Shown: positions 38,416 to 63,713, counted from the stretch's first letter. The stretch: 64,000 bases of DNA from Sneathiella glossodoripedis JCM 23214 (GCF_000616095.1 NZ_BAMS01000003.1:372001-436000); one strand, 5' to 3'. Made by a program: numbers and translations. Notes: generated by a model not told the origin, from the sequence alone.

Positions 38416-41065
38416 ATGACAACGGCAAAAGATATTCGATCTGGTTTCCTCAACTATTTCGGCAAAAATGGTCATGAGATAGTTGATAGTTCACCGCTTG
38501 TACCCAGAAATGATCCTACACTGCTCTTCACAAACGCGGGTATGGTGCAGTTCAAGAACGTTTTTACTGGTCAGGAAAAGCGAGATTATAATCGAGCTGT
38601 AACTACGCAAAAATGCGTCCGTGCCGGTGGAAAACACAACGACCTTGAAAATGTTGGTTATACAGCTCGTCACCATACGTTTTTCGAGATGCTGGGTAAT
38701 TTCTCATTTGGTGACTATTTCAAGGATCTGGCGATTGAACTTGCGTGGAACCTGCTCACTAAAGAGTTTGCTCTTCCTACAGAAAAGCTTTTGGTTACCG
38801 TTTATCATGATGATGAGGAGGCCGTTGATTTATGGAAAAAAATTGCCGGACTTTCCGATGATCGGATTATCCGGATAGCAACATCCGATAATTTCTGGTC
38901 GATGGGTGATACTGGACCTTGCGGACCATGCTCGGAAATTTTCTTTGATCATGGCGAAAAAATCCCTGGTGGTCCTCCAGGCTCTCCAGATGAGGATGGT
39001 GACCGGTTTATCGAAATTTGGAATCTGGTCTTCATGCAATTCGAACAGCAAGCGGGAGGTGAGCGTTTGAATTTGCCTCGTCCATCCATTGACACCGGTA
39101 TGGGGCTTGAGCGGATTGCGGCGGTTCTACAAGGTAAGCACGACAACTATGATATCGACTTGATGCGGCGGATTATTGAAGCCTCTGCTGATGCGTCCAA
39201 TGTTTCGGCTGATGGTGAGTTTGCGGTCTCCCATCGCGTAATTGCTGATCATTTGCGGTCTTCATCATTTCTCATTGCGGATGGTGTTCTTCCATCTAAC
39301 GAAGGGCGGGGTTATGTGCTGCGCCGGATTATGCGACGGGCCATGCGTCATGCTCATCTCTTGGGCGCCAAGGATCCGATGGTCTGGAAGTTGGTGCCGA
39401 CTTTGGTCGATGAAATGGGGGCAGCTTCCCAGAGTTGGAGCGTGCCCAATCCCTTATTACAGAGACATTGAAGACCGAGGAAACCCGTTTTAAGGAGACC
39501 CTAGGCCGCGGCTTGAAGTTGCTGGAGGATGCAACCGAAAAGTTGGGTGATAGTGAAGCCCTCTCTGGTGATGTTGCTTTCAAACTCTATGACACATACG
39601 GTTTTCCTTTGGATCTGACAAAGGACATCCTCAGAGGACAGGGGCGTGAGCTTGACGAAGCTGGCTTTGATGCGGCTATGACCAAGCAAAAAGAAGCTGC
39701 GCGTGCCGCCTGGTCCGGATCCGGCGATGCTGCAACTGACAAACTCTGGTTTGATTTGAGTGATAAGTTAAGTGCAACAGAATTCTTGGGGTACCAGACA
39801 GAGTCTGCAGAAGGGCAGGTACAGGCCTTGATAGTGGATGGTAAGGAAGTTCCTTCTGTAACGGAAGGGGATGACGTCATGGTGATACTGAACCAGACCG
39901 CATTTTATGCGGAATCTGGTGGCCAGGAAGGTGATTGCGGCGACCTGGTGAATGAGAACGGCCTTAAAATTGATGTTACCGATACTCAGAAAAAAGAGAA
40001 CCTTTTTGTTCATGTAGGAAAGGTGCTTCAAGGCTCCGCCAAAGTCGGAGATGTCGTTAATACACAGGTGAAGAAGGAGCGTCGATCACGACTCAAAGCT
40101 CATCATTCTGCTACTCATTTATTGCATGAGGCGCTTCGTCAACGCCTAGGTGATCATGTAACGCAAAAAGGATCTCTGGTCGCGGAGGACAGGCTTCGAT
40201 TTGATATTGCACATCCAAAGCCAATTAGCAGTGAAGAATTGCGGCAGGTAGAAAAGGATGTGAATGACCGTATTCGCCGAAACGCTAAAGTTGAAGTGCA
40301 TCTAACTACACCCGAGGAGGCAATTAAGGCCGGTGCTATGGCCCTTTTTGGGGAAAAATATGGAGATGAGGTTCGTGTAGTTTCCATGGGCGGTGTGGAG
40401 CCTCGAAAGGGGTAGGCCGATCATATTCAACCGAACTTTGTGGCGGTACACATGTGGAGCGAACTGGCGATATTGGCTTGCTTAAAATTGTGAGTGAAAG
40501 TGGTCTTGCCGCTGGTGTTCGGCGTATTGAGGCTGTCGCGGGAGAAGCGGCCCTAGATTATATTAACGAGCGTGAGGGCTTACTTAACAGCGCAGCAGAA
40601 GCGCTTAAAGCGTCTCCTGCAGATTTAGCCTCTCGCGTACATGCGTTATTTGAAGAGCGCAAAAAGCTTGAAAAAGAACTCAAAGAAACCCGTAAAAAGC
40701 TTGCTACGGGTGGTTCTCAAAACGCAGCGGCAGTAGATACCGTTGCGGGACATAATTTTGTGGCTCGCGTAATTGGTGATGTGCCCCCTCGTGACTTAAA
40801 GCCAATGGCTGATGAAATAAAAGCTCAGATTAAGTCTGGTATAGTGGTTCTGATCGCTGATAATGACGGAAAGGCATCCATCGTAATTGGGGTTACAGAT
40901 GATTTGACACCTGACGTGAACGCGGTCGATCTTGTTCGGCTTGGTTCAGAAGCACTTGGAGGCAAGGGCGGCGGCGGACGACCTGATATGGCGCAAGCAG
41001 GTGGACCCAATGCTTCGGCTGCCTCTGCTGCAATTGAAGCAATCAAGGCTGCAATCGTAAGTTAG
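38416..41065 (+). CDS. alaS: Alanyl-tRNA synthetase (two frameshifts)
   Basis: This is an essential class II aminoacyl-tRNA synthetase. The catalytic core shows [21 protein letters not shown] and [19 protein letters not shown]; the editing domain has [11 protein letters not shown] and CGGTHV; the C-terminal C-Ala domain ends in [12 protein letters not shown]. Two single-base losses break it. Near 39427 a base (probably T) is missing, restoring [17 protein letters not shown]. Near 40411 GGGG should be GGGGG, restoring [17 protein letters not shown]. With both restored the protein has 883 residues, the normal length. As alaS is essential, the breaks must be sequence errors. Confidence 0.95.
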
Positions 41066-50915: not shown

Positions 50916-52021
50916 ATGCTTCGAATTCTGCTGATCGCACTGTGTATAGCAGTTTCTACTGTGGGGAGTATTAATTCGGTCTCTGCGAGCAGATTCGAAG
51001 ACTATTGGACAGTTGAAGAGTTTTTGTCGCTTAATGTTGAACAAGTCGCACTTAGCGAAACTTTTTCCATTGCTGTTCGAAAAGAGGCCAGGACAACTAA
51101 CTCATCTAATGCAGTTGCCAAAATAGCTGTTGTATACCCTGGCTTGCAGGTATCAGATTACTGGCGTCGTAGCATTGTATCACTCGAAAAGCGTTTGCAG
51201 GAAGCTGGTCAAAAATATGAATTGATTACCCATTTTACCAAGCCCGGCGAAAGTGTCGGCGAACAGGGGCAGAAACTCGGAGAGTTTTTGGCACAAGAAC
51301 CAGATTACCTCATTTTTACTTTAAACGTAAATCGCCATAAAAATGTCATTCGTAAATTGCTTGCGAGAAGTTCCACCCAAGTAATTTTACAGAATATCAC
51401 AACACCGCTTAAAGAGTTTTCTGCACTTCAACCTTTTCAGTATGTCGGGTTTGATCACGCATTGGGAACTGGATTACTCGTTGAGAGATACTTCGAGCTA
51501 TTCCCAAATGGAGCTGAATACGCCATTTTTTACGGTCCAAAGGGATATGTCAGTGACATGCGCGGAGGAACTTTTCTACAGGCCATGCAGAAAAATAAAA
51601 ACATGGTGTTGAAGGATTCCTATTTCGTTGGATTTAATAGAGAGAAATCACGTGAAGCGGCGCTAGAGGTTCTGAAAACACATCCCAACTTAAAGTTTAT
51701 TTTCAGTGCATCTACGGATATCGCCCTCGGTGTAATTGATGCAGTTGAAGAAATGGGGCTGCAAGGGAAAGTCATTACAAACGGTTGGGGGGGCGGTAGC
51801 GCTGAATTAGAGGCCCTGAGATCTAATAAAATGACTCTAACGGTAATGCGAATGAATGATGACAACGGTGTCGCCATGGCTGACGCTATTGTTTTGGCCC
51901 AGTCAGGTCTAAGAATAAAGTCCCAACAATTTACTCTGGTGATATGGTTTTAGTAGACAGTGATATGAATGACCTTGAAATTGAGGCTTTGAAGAAGCGT
52001 GCGTTCCGATATTCTGAGTAA
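50916..52021 (+). CDS. LuxP-like periplasmic autoinducer-2 receptor (one frameshift)
   Basis: This periplasmic-binding protein has a signal peptide to about residue 25 and 368 residues once restored, close to the 365 of Vibrio LuxP. Matching blocks are VVYPGLQVSDYW, LIFTLNVNRH, ILQNITTP, YVGFDHALG, NGWGGGSAELEA and TVMRMNDDNGVAMADAI. All AI-2-contacting residues I recall from the V. harveyi LuxP structure are present: Q78, S80, W83, N160, R216, S266, T267, D268, W291, R312 (one or two positions later than in Vibrio). The frame breaks at about 51921, where CCC should be CCCC, restoring SPTIYSGDM and the tail EALKKRAFRYSE, a LuxP C terminus. It overlaps the kinase gene by 23 bases. Confidence 0.9.
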
Positions 52022-54605
52022 GTTTCTTCCAAAAAGCGGAATATCTCTTTCCGTATTAATCCTGATTAGTCAGTTTTCATTATTGACGTTATTTGGCGTG
52101 GTGATGTTGATCGTCACTTATTACAGTTCAAGCCTTGTTGTTGAGAGTGAAAAGGAGCGCATAGAGGAAATTTCAGGAATTGTTGGGGATCTGGTTCTGG
52201 ATAAAGAACTGGAGGCGATTTCTGACTACACAGATTTACTCGCAGAGGAGCTTTCTTCTCTCAAAAATAGCCGAGGGTTCCCTGCAGAAGACTTGATCAG
52301 AGGGGCTTTTTACTCACAAGAAGAAGGTCGGATTGATTTCATTGCTATCCTTGACAGCGAAGGGAATATCATAACTGAGGTTAGCTCTGAATTCGAGGAA
52401 TATCCAGCCATTCGCAGCAGTTTTCGGACAGCGAAACCCCGAATTCAAAGATGGAACTGGGCTATCGAAAAGCGCGATAATGGTGGCATCAATAATGTTC
52501 TATTATATTATCAGAGTGAGTTGGTTGATCCAAGGCTGGGCCGAGTGACCGGATACCTGTTGAGCGGTATTTTTCTCAAAGATAACAGCAGCTTGATGGA
52601 AGAGATACTGTCGCGTAGTAACGCTATTTCGACGTCTTTAATTATAGACGGTAACACCCTGACCCATGTGGGTGAAGTGAGCCGAGCTGTGATTGAGGAA
52701 TATGTGCAAACAGGTCAGTTTTCCTCTGCAATTGAAGGGACCTCCGTTCGCTCTTTAGTACTTGGAGAAAAAGTCCCTGATTTACAAATTACAACTCTCT
52801 CTATTCTTCCTGCAGATTTTAATCAATCGCTTGAAGAGTTGTTTTTCTTATCTTCTGGTGCTGCTCTGCTATTCACACTGGGTATCTCAATACTCGCTAT
52901 TTATTTGACGCATCGTCAGATATTGCAACCCTTGGAAGCTCTCATCGATTATGCGAGGGAAGTTGGGCGGCGTGAGCTCAACCCGATTATTCAGCCATTT
53001 ACAATTTCAGAGTTCAATGAGGTGGGTAAAACTCTCACCGGTGTCTTCAATGATTTTCAGGAAAGTGAAAGGCGTTTTGAAGACATTGTGTCCATTGCGT
53101 CTGATATTATTTGGGAGACTGATACAGAGCATCGTTATTCTTTTATTGCCAGACAACCAGAAGCAAAAGTATTTGACCAACCCCAAAGCCCATTGCTTGG
53201 TACCCGCCGAGATGATTTAGCGTTCCAGGAAATACAAGGCATGAGTTGGGACGAATATCATCATATTCTGGAAACTCTGCAACCCTATAAAAATATATTG
53301 TTTAAATGGTCGATGGACGATGGTCGTGTATTCTATTTTTCCACCAGTGGTAAGCCAAGATACGATAGTAAAGGTAATTTCTTAGGCTATCGTGGCATGT
53401 CTTCGAACATTACCGCTGAAGTCGAGGCTCAACAGGAAGCGGAAGCCGCACAAGCGCAACTGCGACAATCGCAAAAACTAGAGGTTGTCGGACAGCTAAC
53501 AGGCGGAATCGCTCATGATTTTAATAACTTGCTGTCAGTTGTTATTGGAAATCTGGAGCTGGCGCTGGAGGATGAAAAGCTTGCTAAACCGATGCGTAAA
53601 TTACTCAATGATGCGATGCGCGGGGCAGAGAAAGGGGCTGCGCTAACCCATCAATTGCTGGCCTATTCCCGTCAACAGGCGTTGCATCCAAAACGGGTTC
53701 GGCCGCAGAAAGTGATCGCGGATATCAAAGCGCTGCTGCAACGGGCTGTGGGTGAGGGGATAGATTTTCACCTTCAGTTTGAAGATACTTGGTCGGTTTT
53801 AGTTGATCCGAATGAGTTGGAAAATGCGCTAATGAACCTTGTGGTTAATGCAAGAGATGCAATGAATGGTAGCGGTTCAATTAGTCTTGAGAGTTTTAAT
53901 ATTGAACTTGATGATGAGTATGTGGCTGGCAAGCAGGAATTAAAGGCAGGACAATATGTTTGCGTAGTTGTTTCCGACAATGGATCAGGTATCGAACCCG
54001 AACTGATGGAGCGGATATTTGAACCATTTTTCACGACCAAAGAAGTTGGTAAGGGGAGCGGCCTTGGGTTGAGTATGGTCTTTGGCTTTGCCAAGCAATC
54101 AGGTGGCCATGTCAGTATTTACAGTGAGCCGGGTGAGGGAACTTCAATCAAGCTAATGCTGCCACGTGTCTTTAGTGAAAGTGATGAAGACACTAATGTT
54201 AGTGTGGATGATGTCGTCAAGCTGGGTCAGGGAGAATGTGTCCTTGTGGTCGAAGATAATGAAGAGTTACGTGAACTCGTTAAAACTCAACTTTCCTCCA
54301 TTGGATATGAGACACTCGTTTGTAAGACAGGGGCGGAAGCTTTGGAGGCACTTATTATACAAGATGTTGATATTGTATTGAGTGATGTCATCCTGCCCGG
54401 AAGCATGTCAGGCATTGATATTTACAAATATGTCCGTAGCCAGTACCCGGAAAAAGCAGTGCAATTGATGTCCGGCTTTGCTGGTACAGCTTTTACTGCG
54501 GACAAAGATATTCCTGCGGATGCAAATATTCTGTTTAAACCTTTCACAAAAGCAAAACTGTCAGCGGCTCTTTATGATGCTAGGCACCAGTCAGATCAGA
54601 CTTGA
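51999..54605 (+). CDS. LuxQ-like hybrid sensor histidine kinase
   Basis: This is an inner-membrane receptor of 868 residues. A membrane segment lies at about residues 15-41, a periplasmic sensor of about 240 residues follows, then a second membrane segment (about 283-304), HAMP (305-360), PAS (about 357-475), HisKA with His506 in GGIAHDFNNLL, HATPase with NARDA, DNGSGI and GSGLGLSM, and a C-terminal receiver with Asp796 in IVLSDVILPG. The periplasmic part pairs with the upstream LuxP-like protein by position. The kinase core with HDFNNLL is a common hybrid-kinase type and may not be orthologous with Vibrio LuxQ. No HPt protein or LuxO homologue is present nearby. Confidence 0.85.
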   Translation: MRSDILSKFLPKSGISLSVLILISQFSLLTLFGVVMLIVTYYSSSLVVESEKERIEEISGIVGDLVLDKELEAISDYTDLLAEELSSLKNSRGFPAEDLIRGAFYSQEEGRIDFIAILDSEGNIITEVSSEFEEYPAIRSSFRTAKPRIQRWNWAIEKRDNGGINNVLLYYQSELVDPRLGRVTGYLLSGIFLKDNSSLMEEILSRSNAISTSLIIDGNTLTHVGEVSRAVIEEYVQTGQFSSAIEGTSVRSLVLGEKVPDLQITTLSILPADFNQSLEELFFLSSGAALLFTLGISILAIYLTHRQILQPLEALIDYAREVGRRELNPIIQPFTISEFNEVGKTLTGVFNDFQESERRFEDIVSIASDIIWETDTEHRYSFIARQPEAKVFDQPQSPLLGTRRDDLAFQEIQGMSWDEYHHILETLQPYKNILFKWSMDDGRVFYFSTSGKPRYDSKGNFLGYRGMSSNITAEVEAQQEAEAAQAQLRQSQKLEVVGQLTGGIAHDFNNLLSVVIGNLELALEDEKLAKPMRKLLNDAMRGAEKGAALTHQLLAYSRQQALHPKRVRPQKVIADIKALLQRAVGEGIDFHLQFEDTWSVLVDPNELENALMNLVVNARDAMNGSGSISLESFNIELDDEYVAGKQELKAGQYVCVVVSDNGSGIEPELMERIFEPFFTTKEVGKGSGLGLSMVFGFAKQSGGHVSIYSEPGEGTSIKLMLPRVFSESDEDTNVSVDDVVKLGQGECVLVVEDNEELRELVKTQLSSIGYETLVCKTGAEALEALIIQDVDIVLSDVILPGSMSGIDIYKYVRSQYPEKAVQLMSGFAGTAFTADKDIPADANILFKPFTKAKLSAALYDARHQSDQT

Positions 54606-54620
54606 GCATTTGACTAGCGG

Positions 54621-56893
54621 TTAAGCAATATACCCGGCTTTGGAAAGAGGTAATTCCCTGATTCGTTCACCTGTTGCCGTGAATAAAGCATTGGCAAGCG
54701 CTGGTGCGATGGGCGGCGTGCCCGGTTCTCCCACACCACCAAGAGGTCTGCCTGAGGGAGCTAAATGAACATCAATCTGAGGCGTGTTTGCTAGTCTGAT
54801 CATTTCGTAGTCTGGAAAGTTTTCCTGTTCAACTTGCCCGTTTTCAACAGTAATCTCACCAAATAGCGCAGCACTTAATCCAAAAATGATCCCACTTTCC
54901 ATCTGAGATACTACACCATCAGGTTCAGAACTTCACCACAATCTATGACGCATGTGACCTTATGCAGGGTGATTTCTTTGTCTGGGCTGACGCTGATTTC
55001 AACGACCTGTCCGACGATTGATCCAAAGCTTTCGTGCAACGCGATACCTCTGAAGTGTCCATCTGCAGCAGGTTCTTTCCAATTACTTTCTTTTTCCAGT
55101 CGGTTTAAGACTGCCAAAAAATCTTTGCTATCTGAAAGGTGGAGGCGACGAAATTCAATTGGGTCTATTTCCGCTTTGGCGGCAAGTTCGTCCATGAAGC
55201 ACTCGGTAAAGAAAGCGTTGTAGGAATGTCCGACGCTCCGCCAGTAACCAATAGGAACCTGGACAGGGGTTGGAAAGTGCTCCATCAGCTTATGAGGGAA
55301 TTCATAAGGGATATCTGCTGCCCCTTCCACCGTCGTGTTATCTGGCATATCAGCACCGGCAAACGGTAACATACGTTGCACGAACGCTCGGGAGATGGAG
55401 GGACTGGCAACTTTATTATGCCATGCCTGTACTCGCCCTTGAGAGTCCAGGGTCGCCTCAAATTTTGCTAACGCTGCGGGACGATACATGTCATGCTGCA
55501 TATCATTTTCTCTTGTCCATATCAGCTTAACAGGTCGGCCCTTAAATGCTTTGGCAAAATTGAGGGTCATCGAAACACAGTCAGTTTCCACTTTGCGGCC
55601 AAAGCCTCCGCCAAGGTAAGTATTGTGGACGCTGACATTCTCGGCATCTACTTCAGCTATTTCCTGGGCAATCCAGCTAATTAACGTGTTAGATTGGTTA
55701 GGTGTCCAGACCTCAACGGACGTATCCGTCACAATCGCGGTGCAATTCATAGGCTCCATACAGGCATGTGCGAGAAATGGGACTTTATAGGTTGCTGTAC
55801 TTTTACTAGCACCGGAGTTGGACAGCACAGATTTTGCATCACCTTCTTCAGCGTAGGAGCGTCCGTCATCCAACTTGAGTTGCTCTTCAAATTCGTTGAA
55901 TATACCGTCAGTGCTGAGAGAGGAATTGATGGTATCGTCGAAAGTAACGGGTAATTGTTCGACTGCCTGTTTGGCGCGCCAAAAACTGTTGGCGACTACG
56001 GCAACAGCATTTTCAAGTTTAACGGCTTTCAGCACGCCCGGCATATTTCCAATTTTGCTCTCGTCCCAGTGTTTAACTGTTCCGCCGAAAGTCGGGCAGA
56101 TTTTAACCGCGGCATAAACCATATCGGGAAGTGAGACATCTACGCCAAACTCGGCTTCTCCAGTAACTTTGGCAGGAATGTCAATTCTCTGTTGAGAATA
56201 TCCTATAACGCGACGCTCTGAGGGTTGTTTTAGCGATACTTCTTCCGGGATATCCAGTTTCGAAGCCGCTTGTGCGAGCTCACCATAGCTAGCGGAGTTA
56301 TCGCTGCTGTCGTGTATAATTTTGCCGGCTTTAGCATAACATTCAGATGCAGGGACTGACCAGCGATCAGCCGCCGCTTGGATCAGCATTTGGCGAGCGG
56401 TCGCACCTGCCTGTTGCATTGGAAGCCAGAAATTGCGAACGCTTGTACTTCCTCCTGTCGCTTGAATACCTAGTAGGGCGCCAACTTTCTTCATTGCCCA
56501 AGCGCCGGCAGTCTCTTCTCCTCTATGATGTCCATCTCCAAATGGCAGACTGTCTTGAATAATGGTGAAATTTGCATAGACGGCGTCGATCGGTGCCTGT
56601 TCCGGTGTAATGCCTGCGACGTCAACTTCCAACTCCTCTGCGACAAGCATGCATAACGCCGTGTGTATTCCTTGACCCATTTCAGCCTGTGAAATGGCGA
56701 CACTGATGTTTCCGTTGCTCGAAATTTTAACCCATGCGTTTAGGGTAAATTCATTTGTACCTGCAGTAGAAGCGTAAGGCGCTCTGTCGGGTACGTCATT
56801 TCCTCCAAAAGCATAGGCAACAGCCAAACCACCACCAACAAGGCCGCCTGCAATCAGGAATTTGCGACGTGTCAATAAAGTTGACTTTGCCAT
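54621..56893 (-). CDS. Molybdopterin-binding subunit of IorB-type oxidoreductase (one frameshift)
   Basis: This is the large catalytic subunit of a xanthine-oxidase-family enzyme such as isoquinoline 1-oxidoreductase or an aldehyde dehydrogenase. It has a Tat signal (LTRRKFLIAGG), the molybdopterin-binding blocks AEMGQGIHTALCMLVAEEL, GGGFGRKVETDCVS and GGVGEPGTPPIAPALANALF with the conserved Glu. The frame breaks near 54922, where CC should be CCC on the coding strand; this restores CGEVLNPDGVVSQMESGIIFG. The full length is then 757 residues. It lies one base downstream of the iron-sulfur subunit gene and works with it. Confidence 0.9.
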
Positions 56894-60363: not shown

Positions 60364-60693
60364 CTATTTATTGCCCATTTTATCAACAACAGCTTGTATG
60401 GCTGCCAAATTATCTGCAACCGCGCTGTCATTAATCAAGGCTTGTGAAGCCTTGGCTGCGGCAGCTGGGTCTGAAGTGATAAGTTGACGAGAAGCCGCAA
60501 GCGTAATTGCGTTGTGAATGGAATAACTGTGTTGCTGCTGTGCGATCACGTTTTGCAGTGCCAGTCCCACGCTGTGTGCCATTTGCTGATATAAAATTCC
60601 TACAGCTTCTGCCGGTGCTTCACCGATCACTTTTAGGCTTGTTTGACCAACTGCGTCTGTTATCTGGCTATTTACATAACTGTCTTCGCTCAT
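60364..60693 (-). CDS. R-body protein, RebB/killing-trait family
   Basis: The product is 109 residues starting MSEDSYVNSQITDAVGQ, with APAEAVGILYQQMAHSVGLALQ as second block and QQ near the centre. This is the RebB/'killing trait' family of R-body structural proteins, helical proteins that polymerise into coiled ribbons. The C terminus ends in a helical ALINDSAVADNLAAIQAVVDKMG. A good ribosome-binding sequence (CAGGAGT) precedes the start. It is one of at least six parallel paralogues in this locus. Confidence 0.85.
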   Translation of the reverse strand: MSEDSYVNSQITDAVGQTSLKVIGEAPAEAVGILYQQMAHSVGLALQNVIAQQQHSYSIHNAITLAASRQLITSDPAAAAKASQALINDSAVADNLAAIQAVVDKMGNK

Positions 60694-60734
60694 TGAAGTA
60701 CTCCTGGCAGGCTTTTAGCCTTTTCGACGTCAAT

Positions 60735-61085
60735 TTATTTACTCTCTTTTGTGCGAATATTTTTGGTTTTCTTATTTCGTTTTCTGCGTTTTTCCGGAAC
60801 AATTGCTGGTGGAATATGGATTATGGTTTGTTTTCGTTGTGGAGATAGCAGAAGTTGAAGATTTTGGGTCAACGCTGCTAAACCTACGGTATTTGCGTGT
60901 TGTTGATTAGAAACAGTATTCTGTGCACCTGTGCCCATGGCTTGAGACATGGTTTGGTAGAGCGCAGCCATAGAATGCGCTGGTGCCATGCCAGTGATCA
61001 AGGAATTGGATTGTGTAATGGCATCCGTAATCTGACTGTTTACTGACCTGATACCTGCTGTTTCACTTTTTGTAGTACTAGACAT
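60735..61085 (-). CDS. RebB-family paralogue with basic C-terminal tail
   Basis: The product is 116 residues from ATG 61085, which follows GGAG at a good distance; an ATG at 61097 is possible. It has SVNSQITDAITQSN, APAHSMAALYQTMSQ and NTVSNQQHANTV. After about residue 75 it departs from the others: EKRRKRNKKTKNIRTKESK is a strongly basic tail where the others have an acidic or neutral helix. It could be a nucleic-acid- or membrane-binding variant, or the result of a frameshift. An intercistronic stem-loop lies immediately upstream. Confidence 0.78.
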   Translation of the reverse strand: MSSTTKSETAGIRSVNSQITDAITQSNSLITGMAPAHSMAALYQTMSQAMGTGAQNTVSNQQHANTVGLAALTQNLQLLLSPQRKQTIIHIPPAIVPEKRRKRNKKTKNIRTKESK

Positions 61086-61112
61086 AATTTGCTCCAATGC
61101 ACACTGTTTTAA

Positions 61113-61158
61113 CTGAACCTCACTTATGACGCATGAAAGGGTCAGTCGTGAGGCTCAG
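61113..61158 (-). repeat. Intercistronic stem-loop in the reb array
   Basis: On the coding strand, CTGAGCCTCAC pairs with GTGAGGTTCAG (one G-U pair) across a 24-base loop. It lies in the 108-base gap between the paralogues ending at 61194 and starting at 61085. No T-run follows, so it is more likely an RNA processing or stoichiometry element than a terminator. Confidence 0.45.
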
Positions 61159-61193
61159 ATATCATCATTTGCTAGTTCGCAGAATTTGCTACA

Positions 61194-61553
61194 TTATGAG
61201 CTGAAACGAGGGGTGTTTGCGTTTCTATCACGCTCATAAGCGGCAAGTACACCTTTGAGGGAAGACATTGACTCGGCGATTGGGTTTCCGCTCAGGATTT
61301 CCTGCGTTGCTTTACCCTGTGTCGCTGTGTCGAGCGTGTACAGAACTGTAACTGCTCCTGTTACTACAGCACTATCAATTGAGTTTTTATGCTGCTGGTT
61401 GGCTACCATATTTTGCATGCTCATACCGGTGCTTTGAGCGAGCATCTGATAAAGCATGCCCATAGATTCTGCAGGGGCATCCCCAAGAACCTTGACGTTA
61501 GACTGGGTTACAGAGTCGGTTATCTGACTATTCATCCAGGTATTTTCCGCCAT
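61194..61553 (-). CDS. R-body protein, RebB family
   Basis: The product is 119 residues starting MAENTWMNSQITDSVTQSN, then VLGDAPAESMGMLYQMLAQSTGMSMQNMVANQQHKNSID. The two blocks are nearly those of the 62307 paralogue, which points to recent duplication. The C terminus ends in a short polar tail. The ribosome-binding site AAGGAG precedes the ATG. Reb proteins of this class build the ribbon of type 51 R-bodies in Caedibacter. Confidence 0.88.
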   Translation of the reverse strand: MAENTWMNSQITDSVTQSNVKVLGDAPAESMGMLYQMLAQSTGMSMQNMVANQQHKNSIDSAVVTGAVTVLYTLDTATQGKATQEILSGNPIAESMSSLKGVLAAYERDRNANTPRFSS

Positions 61554-61592
61554 TGTTTAACTCCTTTGGAAATTGAACTTATCTGTTAAAAA

Positions 61593-61913
61593 TTAGAACG
61601 CTCTCGCGGCTGCTTGCATGGCAGTTAGGGACTCCGCAACTGGATTGCCCCCGAGAATTTCAGCAGTTGATTTAGATGCGGTTGCGGCAGAGAGATTGTA
61701 AAGTACACTAGTGCCTTGTGTAGTTACCGCTAGGTCAATAGTGGACGCGCTTTGCTGATTGGAAACCGCGTTTTGCATGCTTGCGCCAACGACCTGACCA
61801 AAGACCTGGTAAGTGTTTGCCATTGAAACGGCAGGGGCCTCAGCCAAGCTTGTCACATTTGCTTGGGTAATTGAGTCTGTAATCTGTGAATTTACGGGTG
61901 TATCACCTGGCAT
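61593..61913 (-). CDS. R-body protein, RebB family
   Basis: The product is 106 residues starting MPGDTPVNSQITDSITQAN. It has LAEAPAVSMANTYQVFGQVVG, SMQNAVSNQQSAS and EILGGNPVAESLTAMQAAARAF. AAGGAGT stands before the ATG. Spacing to its neighbours is about 40-46 bases, so the whole array is one operon. This paralogue is shorter at the C terminus and has a Phe final residue. Confidence 0.88.
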   Translation of the reverse strand: MPGDTPVNSQITDSITQANVTSLAEAPAVSMANTYQVFGQVVGASMQNAVSNQQSASTIDLAVTTQGTSVLYNLSAATASKSTAEILGGNPVAESLTAMQAAARAF

Positions 61914-61959
61914 TTAAATAACTCCTTTAAGTACTTGGTGGTAAAAATGATGGCGGAGG

Positions 61960-62307
61960 TTATTCTTCGTCATCGTTTTTTGCTGCTTTCAATTCTGAAA
62001 TGATTGCCTGCAATGTCGAGAGAACTTCTGTATTGGAGTCATTCTCAATGATCTCCTTTGCAGATCTCGCATCTATTGCACCGTCAAGGTTGAACAGAAG
62101 ACTAATGCCCTGAGAGACAATGGCGGAATCTATGGTGTTCATGTTCTGCTGGTTCGAAACAGCATTTTGCATGGCTACACCTGTTGATTGTGCCAACATC
62201 TGATAGGCAGTCGCCATGGACTGCGCAGGAGCATTACCTAGAACAGTCATATTCGATTGTGTTACAGCATCTGTAATTTGACTGTTTACCGGAGTGTCCG
62301 TTGCCAT
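61960..62307 (-). CDS. R-body protein, RebB family
   Basis: The product is 115 residues starting MATDTPVNSQITDAVTQSN, with VLGNAPAQSMATAYQMLAQS and QNAVSNQQNMNTIDSA, and a strongly acidic C terminus (KNDDEE). It is the first reb gene after the aminopeptidase divergence, and the 212-base gap upstream must contain its promoter. GGAGGAAG stands before the ATG. Confidence 0.88.
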   Translation of the reverse strand: MATDTPVNSQITDAVTQSNMTVLGNAPAQSMATAYQMLAQSTGVAMQNAVSNQQNMNTIDSAIVSQGISLLFNLDGAIDARSAKEIIENDSNTEVLSTLQAIISELKAAKNDDEE

Positions 62308-62422
62308 TCAGTCTTCCTCCATCTGGTGACAAAAGTGAGAGCAATATGCTTCTCATTCGACAGCGATTAGACGAGAGTTGATGAGACGCTGTGAAAATCA
62401 AATTTCCATTTTCTTCTTTTCT

Positions 62423-62440
62423 GTTGCGAATTGTCGCAAC
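62423..62440. promoter_or_regulatory. 18-base palindrome between divergent reb and map genes
   Basis: GTTGCGA-ATTG-TCGCAAC is a perfect 7-base inverted repeat with a 4-base centre. It lies 115 bases upstream of the reb start at 62307 and 79 bases upstream of the map start, in the shared divergent region. It is a strong candidate operator; the regulator is unknown. Confidence 0.5.
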
Positions 62441-62519
62441 GGATTGAGATGTTTTTATCAGTCGCCGTGTGCTACATAGCTTTGGTTTTGTCAGTAAGCG
62501 GAAGAGGCATTTCCACACT

Positions 62520-63257
62520 ATGATCGCAAAATCAGATTCAGAAATAGCTGGTTTAAAAGAAGTCGGAGGAATAATCAGGAATATTCTTGATACAATTGAA
62601 ACTCACATACGTGTCGGTGTTTCGACTCTTGAACTGGACCAGCTAGTGGGGGAGATGCTGGCTCAGAATGGAGCGCGATCAGCGCCAAAGCTCGCTTATG
62701 ATTTTCCTGGCTATAGCTGCATAAGTTTAAATGATGAGGCAGCGCACGGTATTCCTTCAAACAGGAAACTTAAAAAAGGCGAACTTGTAAATGTGGATGT
62801 AAGTGCTGAAAAGAATGGGTTCTGGGCGGATTCAGGTCGATCTTTTGCTGTCGAGGGAGCAAGTGACGATGATCGGTTTTTACTTTCGGCAACGCGTCAG
62901 GCGCTTGCAGCCGGTATAGAGCAAGCTCGCGCTGGTAATCCTATTAGTTACATTGCAAGAGCCGTAGAAGAAGTTGCTACCTGCGCGGGTTTTAACATTA
63001 TTGATGGTCTAGTGGGTCATGGAGTGGGGCGGCACATTCACGAGCCCCCTGAAGTTCATAACACCTTTAACTCTGCTGGGGATGAAATATTGCAGGAAGG
63101 GCTTGTTATTACGATTGAACCCTTCCTGACAAAGGGTATTGGTGCCTATCGCGAAGGACGAGATGGCTGGACATTATTGACACTGGACAGAAATCGTGCT
63201 GCCCAGTTTGAGCATACATTGATCGTCACTAAGGAAAAGCCGATCATTGTAACCTAA
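62520..63257 (+). CDS. map: Type I methionine aminopeptidase inside the reb cluster
   Basis: This dinuclear metalloprotease removes initiator methionine and has 245 residues from ATG 62520. All catalytic elements are visible: His in NDEAAHGIP, metal Asps in VNVDVSAEKNGFWADSGRSF, His in VGHGVGRHIHEPP, Glu in TIEPF and Glu in FEHTLIVT. It is on the strand opposite to the reb genes and meets the next reb gene 3 bases after its stop. As MetAP is essential, this could be the only copy or a second, dedicated one. Confidence 0.92.
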   Translation: MIAKSDSEIAGLKEVGGIIRNILDTIETHIRVGVSTLELDQLVGEMLAQNGARSAPKLAYDFPGYSCISLNDEAAHGIPSNRKLKKGELVNVDVSAEKNGFWADSGRSFAVEGASDDDRFLLSATRQALAAGIEQARAGNPISYIARAVEEVATCAGFNIIDGLVGHGVGRHIHEPPEVHNTFNSAGDEILQEGLVITIEPFLTKGIGAYREGRDGWTLLTLDRNRAAQFEHTLIVTKEKPIIVT

Positions 63258-63260
63258 CTT

Positions 63261-63713
63261 TTAACCTCCCATCTTTTTGACAATTGCATCCATGGCAACT
63301 GCTGTTGCCGCAATTGCATCCGCAGTAATTCCTGCAATCTGTTGGCTGGTTTGTGAGCTTAATGCTGTTGCACCAGCGTTGGATACAGAATTTAAATTGC
63401 TGACAGCAGTTTGCGTTTGTGAGTTTAACGCCTGAGAAATGGCTGCAGTTTGAGCATTGTAGGATTCATTAATAGTTGCCCGTTGCGCGCTTAAAGCAGC
63501 CGCTTCTGCGTTTTTTAACGCTGTGATCACAGTTCCATTGGCAGTGTTGACATTATTTAGGATGTTAGAATTCACAGTCGCATTTTCCAAAGCTAAACCA
63601 GAAGAGTGAGCGGCAAATTGGTACAATAAACCCATCGCGAAGTTTGGGGATTCTTCTACATTTGCATAAAGACTGTCTAGTTTAGGAGTTGCAGGTTTGT
63701 CTGACGATGGCAT
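63261..63713 (-). CDS. Divergent Reb-like protein with long Ala/Ser/Thr/Gln-rich helix
   Basis: The product is 150 residues. It has ANVEESPNFAMGLLYQFAAHSSGLALENATVNSN, which corresponds to the APA-SM-YQ and QNAVSNQQ blocks of the RebB family, but it lacks the N-terminal VNSQITD block. From residue 60 onwards it is rich in Ala, Asn, Thr, Ser and Gln, and looks like a continuous helix or coiled coil. It may be the scaffold or assembly factor of the R-body. The product ends MDAIVKKMGG. Confidence 0.7.
   Translation of the reverse strand: MPSSDKPATPKLDSLYANVEESPNFAMGLLYQFAAHSSGLALENATVNSNILNNVNTANGTVITALKNAEAAALSAQRATINESYNAQTAAISQALNSQTQTAVSNLNSVSNAGATALSSQTSQQIAGITADAIAATAVAMDAIVKKMGG

Follow-up and report, generated by a model that had tools for sequence, protein, structure and literature searches.

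The question raised by this locus is whether a receptor regarded as a Vibrio trait is also found, with its ligand pocket intact, in an alphaproteobacterium, and what it would do there. LuxPQ was concluded to be restricted to Vibrio or the Vibrionales (PMC524169, 2004, and PMC2561040, 2008), and the statement that LuxP occurs only in Vibrio has been repeated since (PMC7584622, 2020; PMC12503165, 2025). The narrow range of the two classical autoinducer-2 (AI-2) receptors has been used as a reason to question whether AI-2 truly signals between species. An intact pocket in a LuxP/LuxQ-type sensor of Alphaproteobacteria without luxS would allow interspecies listening to be tested directly. The gene pair analysed here lies in a stretch of 64,000 nucleotides (the window) from the genome of Sneathiella glossodoripedis JCM 23214, and it probably encodes a LuxPQ-type AI-2 receptor in a Sneathiella-like bacterium that has no luxS of its own. 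The features of the pair are listed in Table 1.

Table 1. Features of the luxP-kinase pair, in window coordinates.
Feature	Position	Strand	Basis and remarks
luxP homologue (predicted AI-2-binding periplasmic protein)	50916..52021	+	Two frames, one slip at about 51910-51922; LuxP structures, pocket, tree
LuxQ-like hybrid sensor kinase, 868 aa, GTG start	51999..54605	+	Overlaps luxP by 23 bases
LuxQ-type periplasmic sensor domain, about residues 45-275	52131..52823	+	PF09308, 29.8 bits (cut-off 25.7); family profile; AlphaFold fold
HisKA domain, phospho-acceptor box GGIAHDFNNLLSVV	53490..53681	+	Pfam
HATPase_c catalytic domain	53805..54167	+	Pfam, 75.2 bits
Receiver (REC), C-terminal, no HPt after it	54240..54572	+	Pfam, 55.8 bits

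Judged by its sequence, the first gene of the pair encodes a true LuxP, an orthologue with an intact pocket. Its product is 44.5% identical to V. harveyi LuxP (150 of 337 aligned positions; reference sequence taken from the PDB alignment). In a phmmer search against PDB sequences the LuxP chains are matched with an E-value of 1e-79 and the next family with 9e-14, and the protein scores far below the cut-offs of the NCBIfam RbsB and allose-binding models. The sequence-only reading of this DNA had named ten pocket residues as conserved, and all ten (Q78, S80, W83, N160, R216, S266, T267, D268, W291 and R312) are present at exactly the positions claimed. Seven members of this contact set are backed by PMC9687752, according to which Gln77, Ser79, Trp82, Asn159, Arg215, Thr266 and Arg310 (V. 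harveyi numbering) hydrogen-bond AI-2 in the structure 1JX6; the other three were taken from that earlier reading. In an alignment of 82 sequences, again in V. harveyi numbering, W82, N159, R215, T266, W289 and R310 are invariant, Q77, S79 and D267 are nearly invariant, and position S265 is occupied by S in 62 sequences, T in 11 and A in 9. Nine of the ten contact columns are conserved in 96% or more of the aligned sequences, which come from several phyla. The mean identity to the V. harveyi letter in this alignment is 0.97 at the contact columns, compared with 0.46 overall, and none of 20,000 random sets of ten columns matched the conservation of the contact set; this randomisation and the phmmer score gap exclude chance. 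Two paralogous binding proteins aligned as controls do not carry the signature, with QHWDRNEGYQ (L091) and PSWN-WGISY (L094) at the contact columns; L093, a LacI-type regulator, was excluded from the controls.

In a quick tree, many forks of which are weakly supported, the LuxP family is separated from the two long-branched paralogues with a support of 99, and the window protein falls inside a Sneathiella clade with a support of 97%. A ribose-, allose- or galactose-binding protein is ruled out by the score gap, the pocket and the tree. Recent transfer from Vibrio is unsupported: the window protein groups with Sneathiella, and V. harveyi LuxP sits elsewhere. A single clade of all alphaproteobacterial LuxP proteins is not rejected (AU p 0.56). 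With the Vibrio LuxP structures (1JX6, 1ZHH, 2HJ9) the window protein shares homology over its full length, the identity given above, the complete pocket and the C-terminal motif ALKKRAFRYS; it differs in coming from a Sneathiella organism without luxS and in being encoded, in the assembly, in two frames. The protein is predicted to bind AI-2.

Both open reading frames described previously (50916-51953 and 51999-54605) exist. The first is the LuxP frame until about residue 333; the LuxP C terminus, which had been claimed as present, resumes in the other frame from about 51917 as KVPTIYSGDMVLVDSDMNDLEIEALKKRAFRYSE and ends at a stop codon at 52019-52021. The kinase start at 51999 confirms the overlap that had been proposed, and the same 23-base overlap recurs in nine relatives. 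Loss of the contact residues on correction of the frameshift had been named as a possible objection; the slip removes none of them. Both luxP frames are otherwise intact, with all pocket residues present, and luxP is intact in the relatives. The slip is almost certainly an assembly error, since the only full-length alaS of the genome is broken in the same way. The genome (3.63 Mb in 12 contigs) is scored 100% complete, and its single full-length alaS match is split over three frames (38416-39471, 39435-40415 and 40454-41065). This stretch of the window (38416-41065), with alaS as three open reading frames in three frames, is a sign of assembly indel errors. The gene for a molybdopterin-binding oxidase subunit, which adjoins the kinase gene on the minus strand (54621-56893), is likewise split, into 93 + 660 aa; beside luxPQ in the relatives L002, L003 and L014 it is one open reading frame of 753-758 aa. 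Because an essential gene (alaS) and the neighbouring oxidase gene are both broken, the small indels look assembly-wide, and we infer that luxP is intact in the organism.

The partner had been read as a LuxQ-like kinase. This holds for the periplasmic half, on the combined evidence of Pfam, profile and fold, but not for the catalytic half, which is that of a PRK13557/CckA-type hybrid kinase with an HDFNN box. The Pfam match to the LuxQ periplasmic family spans just part of the model, and the case for a LuxQ-type domain is therefore carried by the family alignment and the fold. A profile built from the N-terminal halves of 41 partners found no PDB chains other than those of LuxQ (E 4e-32 to 1e-21). 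In the AlphaFold model of kinase residues 1-319 (mean pLDDT 89.3), the closest folds are the periplasmic domains of V. cholerae and V. harveyi LuxQ (3c30, 2hj9 and 1zhh), with Z of 17.9-18.8 over about 200 residues and an rmsd of about 3 Å; the next fold has Z 12.8. The whole kinase scores 152.8 bits with the LuxQ_Vibrio model (NF041947), for which the cut-off is 1200. Its top kinase models are PRK13557 (337.7 bits, cut-off 631) and CckA (333.3 bits with the Brucella CckA model, cut-off 1000), both scores lying below the cut-off. The protein has transmembrane helices and all catalytic residues and, from sequence and model, appears to be an active hybrid kinase.

Compared with Vibrio LuxQ (NF041947; 2HJE, 3C30), the window kinase has the same periplasmic fold and family, is likewise membrane-bound, ends in a receiver and overlaps luxP; it differs in a whole-protein score far under the cut-off and in the HDFNN, PRK13557/CckA-type catalytic half. 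With the CckA/PRK13557 hybrid kinases it shares the HisKA-HATPase-REC core; unlike them it has a LuxQ-type sensor half, it misses both cut-offs, and a separate CckA candidate is present in the genome. The HDFNN box is common to the other readable partners of the Sneathiella clade (L002-L005 and L014), and partners from Kiloniella, Nisaea and Thalassobaculaceae have HELRTPL or HEFRTPL boxes instead. In one close relative (L002:10299-10682) a stop codon parts the kinase from its receiver, which is still readable downstream in frame.

The absence of luxS from the window, noted previously, extends to the whole Sneathiella genome (3.63 Mb, 100% complete), and none was found in the 30 relatives searched; SahH is present in the Sneathiella genome. 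LuxU and LuxO had also been reported as missing from the window, and a comparison with curated models agrees, giving weak matches far below the cut-offs. For LuxO, no orthologue above cut-off was found in the genome, the best match scoring 306 bits (cut-off 800). A search of the genome for HPt domains found seven places, among them two small stand-alone HPt proteins (L098 and L100) and a ChpT gene beside L096. In an NCBIfam scan of the three HPt-type places L096, L098 and L100, the LuxU model reached at most 28.6 bits (cut-off 140); the ChpT score is 176.7 bits (cut-off 240). The separate CckA candidate, L117, scores 770.6 bits, and the core type of the window kinase is common to many other kinases of the genome.

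The locus appears to encode a listen-only receptor for AI-2 that signals into an alphaproteobacterial phosphorelay. By analogy with Vibrio, LuxP would sit on the periplasmic domain of the kinase, and borated AI-2 (S-THMF-borate) would close LuxP and shift the kinase between its kinase and phosphatase states, in a direction presumably set as in that system. A separate phosphotransferase is expected because the HDFNN kinase has a receiver and no HPt; going by the domain anatomy, the receiver may pass its phosphate to ChpT or to one of the two small orphan HPt proteins, and from there to a response regulator other than LuxO, through which target genes would be reached. Lacking luxS, the cell would depend mainly on its neighbours for the AI-2 that it senses. 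DPD, the precursor of AI-2, can form without LuxS, so the term ‘listen-only’ is not to be taken strictly.

Some of these observations could be explained in other ways. The binding protein could be LuxP-like by descent and have as its ligand another small furanone or a sugar-like compound, the pocket being kept for related chemistry. Ligand switching is easy in periplasmic binding proteins, and 20 of the 82 rows have T or A at position S265. Yet the window protein has lost none of the ten AI-2 contacts, nine of the contact columns are conserved across phyla at the level given above, the paralogues L091 and L094 have no such signature, and LuxP proteins from outside Vibrio bound AI-2 in a published assay (PMC12268683); we judge a different ligand to be quite unlikely. 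Less probable still is a decaying pseudogene pair, in which the frameshifted luxP no longer works. Like breaks occur in the only full-length alaS and in the adjoining oxidase gene, the luxP frames and the kinase gene (868 codons) show no other damage and keep the pocket and catalytic residues, and the genes of relatives are intact; against these stand the frame slip itself, which is present in the assembly, and the absence of the pair from other genomes of the genus.

A further reading is a more specific form of the preferred one: the kinase would act through the CckA-ChpT-CtrA relay, so that AI-2 would adjust cell-cycle or motility control. The catalytic half scores 333 bits on the Brucella CckA model (cut-off 1000) and ChpT is present (176.7 bits, cut-off 240), as this form would have it. 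Against this reading, the genome encodes a CckA candidate elsewhere (L117, 770.6 bits), and with many kinases of the genome sharing the core, the resemblance gives no particular reason to choose ChpT. This relay is a tentative proposal that we regard as rather doubtful, and the favoured explanation is stated here in its general form, as a LuxPQ-type AI-2 receptor.

The sequence-only reading had presented such a receptor as an oddity of one alphaproteobacterium, and this part of it has to be given up, since LuxP with a LuxQ-type partner occurs in many marine lineages and homologues outside Vibrio had already been noted (PMC2561040 and PMC12268683). A scan of GTDB genomes gave 85 loci, the best 80 of which were analysed; these 80 come from Alphaproteobacteria, Gammaproteobacteria (mostly marine), Magnetococcia, Campylobacterota, Desulfobacterota, a Deferribacterota MAG and a Bacteriovorax MAG. 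A gene with a LuxQ periplasmic domain lies downstream on the same strand in 68 of these best 80 loci, and three of the 12 loci without such a neighbour stop at a contig end. The outputs of the 68 partners are a histidine kinase in 34, GGDEF or GGDEF-EAL in 22, SpoIIE in one and none recognised in 11, two of which run off the contig. Some of the histidine-kinase partners carry a receiver, and one (L050) carries a receiver and an HPt. All 11 loci of the Stappia/Labrenzia/Roseibium type have a GGDEF-EAL partner. When the kinase or c-di-GMP label is placed on the LuxP tree, at least five changes are needed.

A LuxQ-periplasm match was found in 9 of 385 genomes drawn evenly from the window's own class, where the domain is uncommon but not unique. 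Carriage in the genus is patchy, with a clear LuxP in 8 of 19 genomes and several near-complete genomes without one; the Sneathiella relatives that carry it have the same pair, overlap and neighbours. luxS was found in 20 of 49 LuxP genomes searched (14 of 16 from Gammaproteobacteria, 5 of 5 from Campylobacterota and one Desulfocapsa, with a partial match) and in none of the 19 alphaproteobacterial LuxP genomes searched, some of the genomes in this survey being incomplete MAGs. The absence of luxS from the alphaproteobacterial LuxP genomes supports a listening role there.

Individual loci add further arrangements. In Motiliproteus (L023:6974-12188), whose genome has luxS, luxP is followed in one run by a LuxQ-type kinase, a single receiver and a REC-GGDEF-EAL protein, a possible relay from AI-2 to c-di-GMP. 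An alphaproteobacterial MAG (L013:6983-11395) has luxP, a LuxQ-type kinase and then a REC-HD_5 response regulator, the HD_5 domain of which would be a c-di-GMP phosphodiesterase. In a Desulfococcaceae locus (L026:7001-10473), LuxP adjoins a LuxQ-periplasmic protein with a terminal SpoIIE phosphatase domain. Partners with PAS domains only or with no recognised output occur in Oceanimonas, Oceanisphaera, Marinobacterium and Onishia (L051, L052, L053, L058, L059, L064, L074 and L075) and may be truncated receptors. In Motilimonas (L067, L068 and L077) LuxP has no LuxQ-type neighbour, and in L067 a TetR-type regulator adjoins it.

On balance, and with some reserve, we favour the view that LuxP and its LuxQ-periplasmic partner form a portable AI-2 sensor, joined to different outputs in marine bacteria of several phyla: repeatedly to c-di-GMP enzymes (the GGDEF-EAL fusions, and the REC-GGDEF-EAL and REC-HD_5 proteins of L023 and L013) and in Sneathiella to a CckA-type kinase. 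In the Alphaproteobacteria, without luxS, it would serve mainly for eavesdropping. The ‘Vibrio’ receptor appears to be a widespread and reusable AI-2 ear, and one AI-2 sensor on several engines is a more interesting result than the single pair.

Parts of this distribution are known. PMC2561040 notes LuxP homologues in Neptuniibacter, Marinomonas, Desulfuromonas and Desulfovibrio; in Neptuniibacter and Marinomonas, both luxS-negative, it describes a PAS-containing regulator next to the LuxP-like protein. In PMC12268683 (2025), 267 LuxP proteins are reported from RefSeq genomes, mainly of Proteobacteria and most abundant in ocean habitats; three of the 267, from Proteobacteria and Deferribacterota, bound AI-2, and the role given to LuxP is the transport of AI-2 into the cell. 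As far as their available text goes, these two reports differ from the present analysis in describing no LuxQ-type sensor domain as a shared partner, no swapping between kinase, c-di-GMP and phosphatase outputs and nothing of this alphaproteobacterial pair. A survey of Cache domains (PMC4822843, 2016) lists 115 LuxQ-periplasm members and enters 112 of these under histidine kinases; the sensor domain is the same, whereas here GGDEF or GGDEF-EAL is found in 22 of the 57 LuxQ-type partners with a recognised output. In the literature searched, no description was found of LuxP coupled to GGDEF-EAL through LuxQ-type sensors, or of output swapping. LuxP outside Vibrio is thus known, from the 2008 and 2025 reports, and what is new at the Sneathiella locus is the same sensor with a different kinase in an organism that has no luxS itself. 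With outputs exchanged behind a conserved sensor, the loci described here would supply candidates in which to look for control of c-di-GMP by AI-2 in marine bacteria.

Elsewhere in the window, the minus strand at 60364-63713 encodes several small proteins in a row, which belong to the RebB ‘killing trait’ family (R-body type). Two of them are confirmed by Pfam (60735-61097 and 63261-63713), and at least three more are alike by eye.
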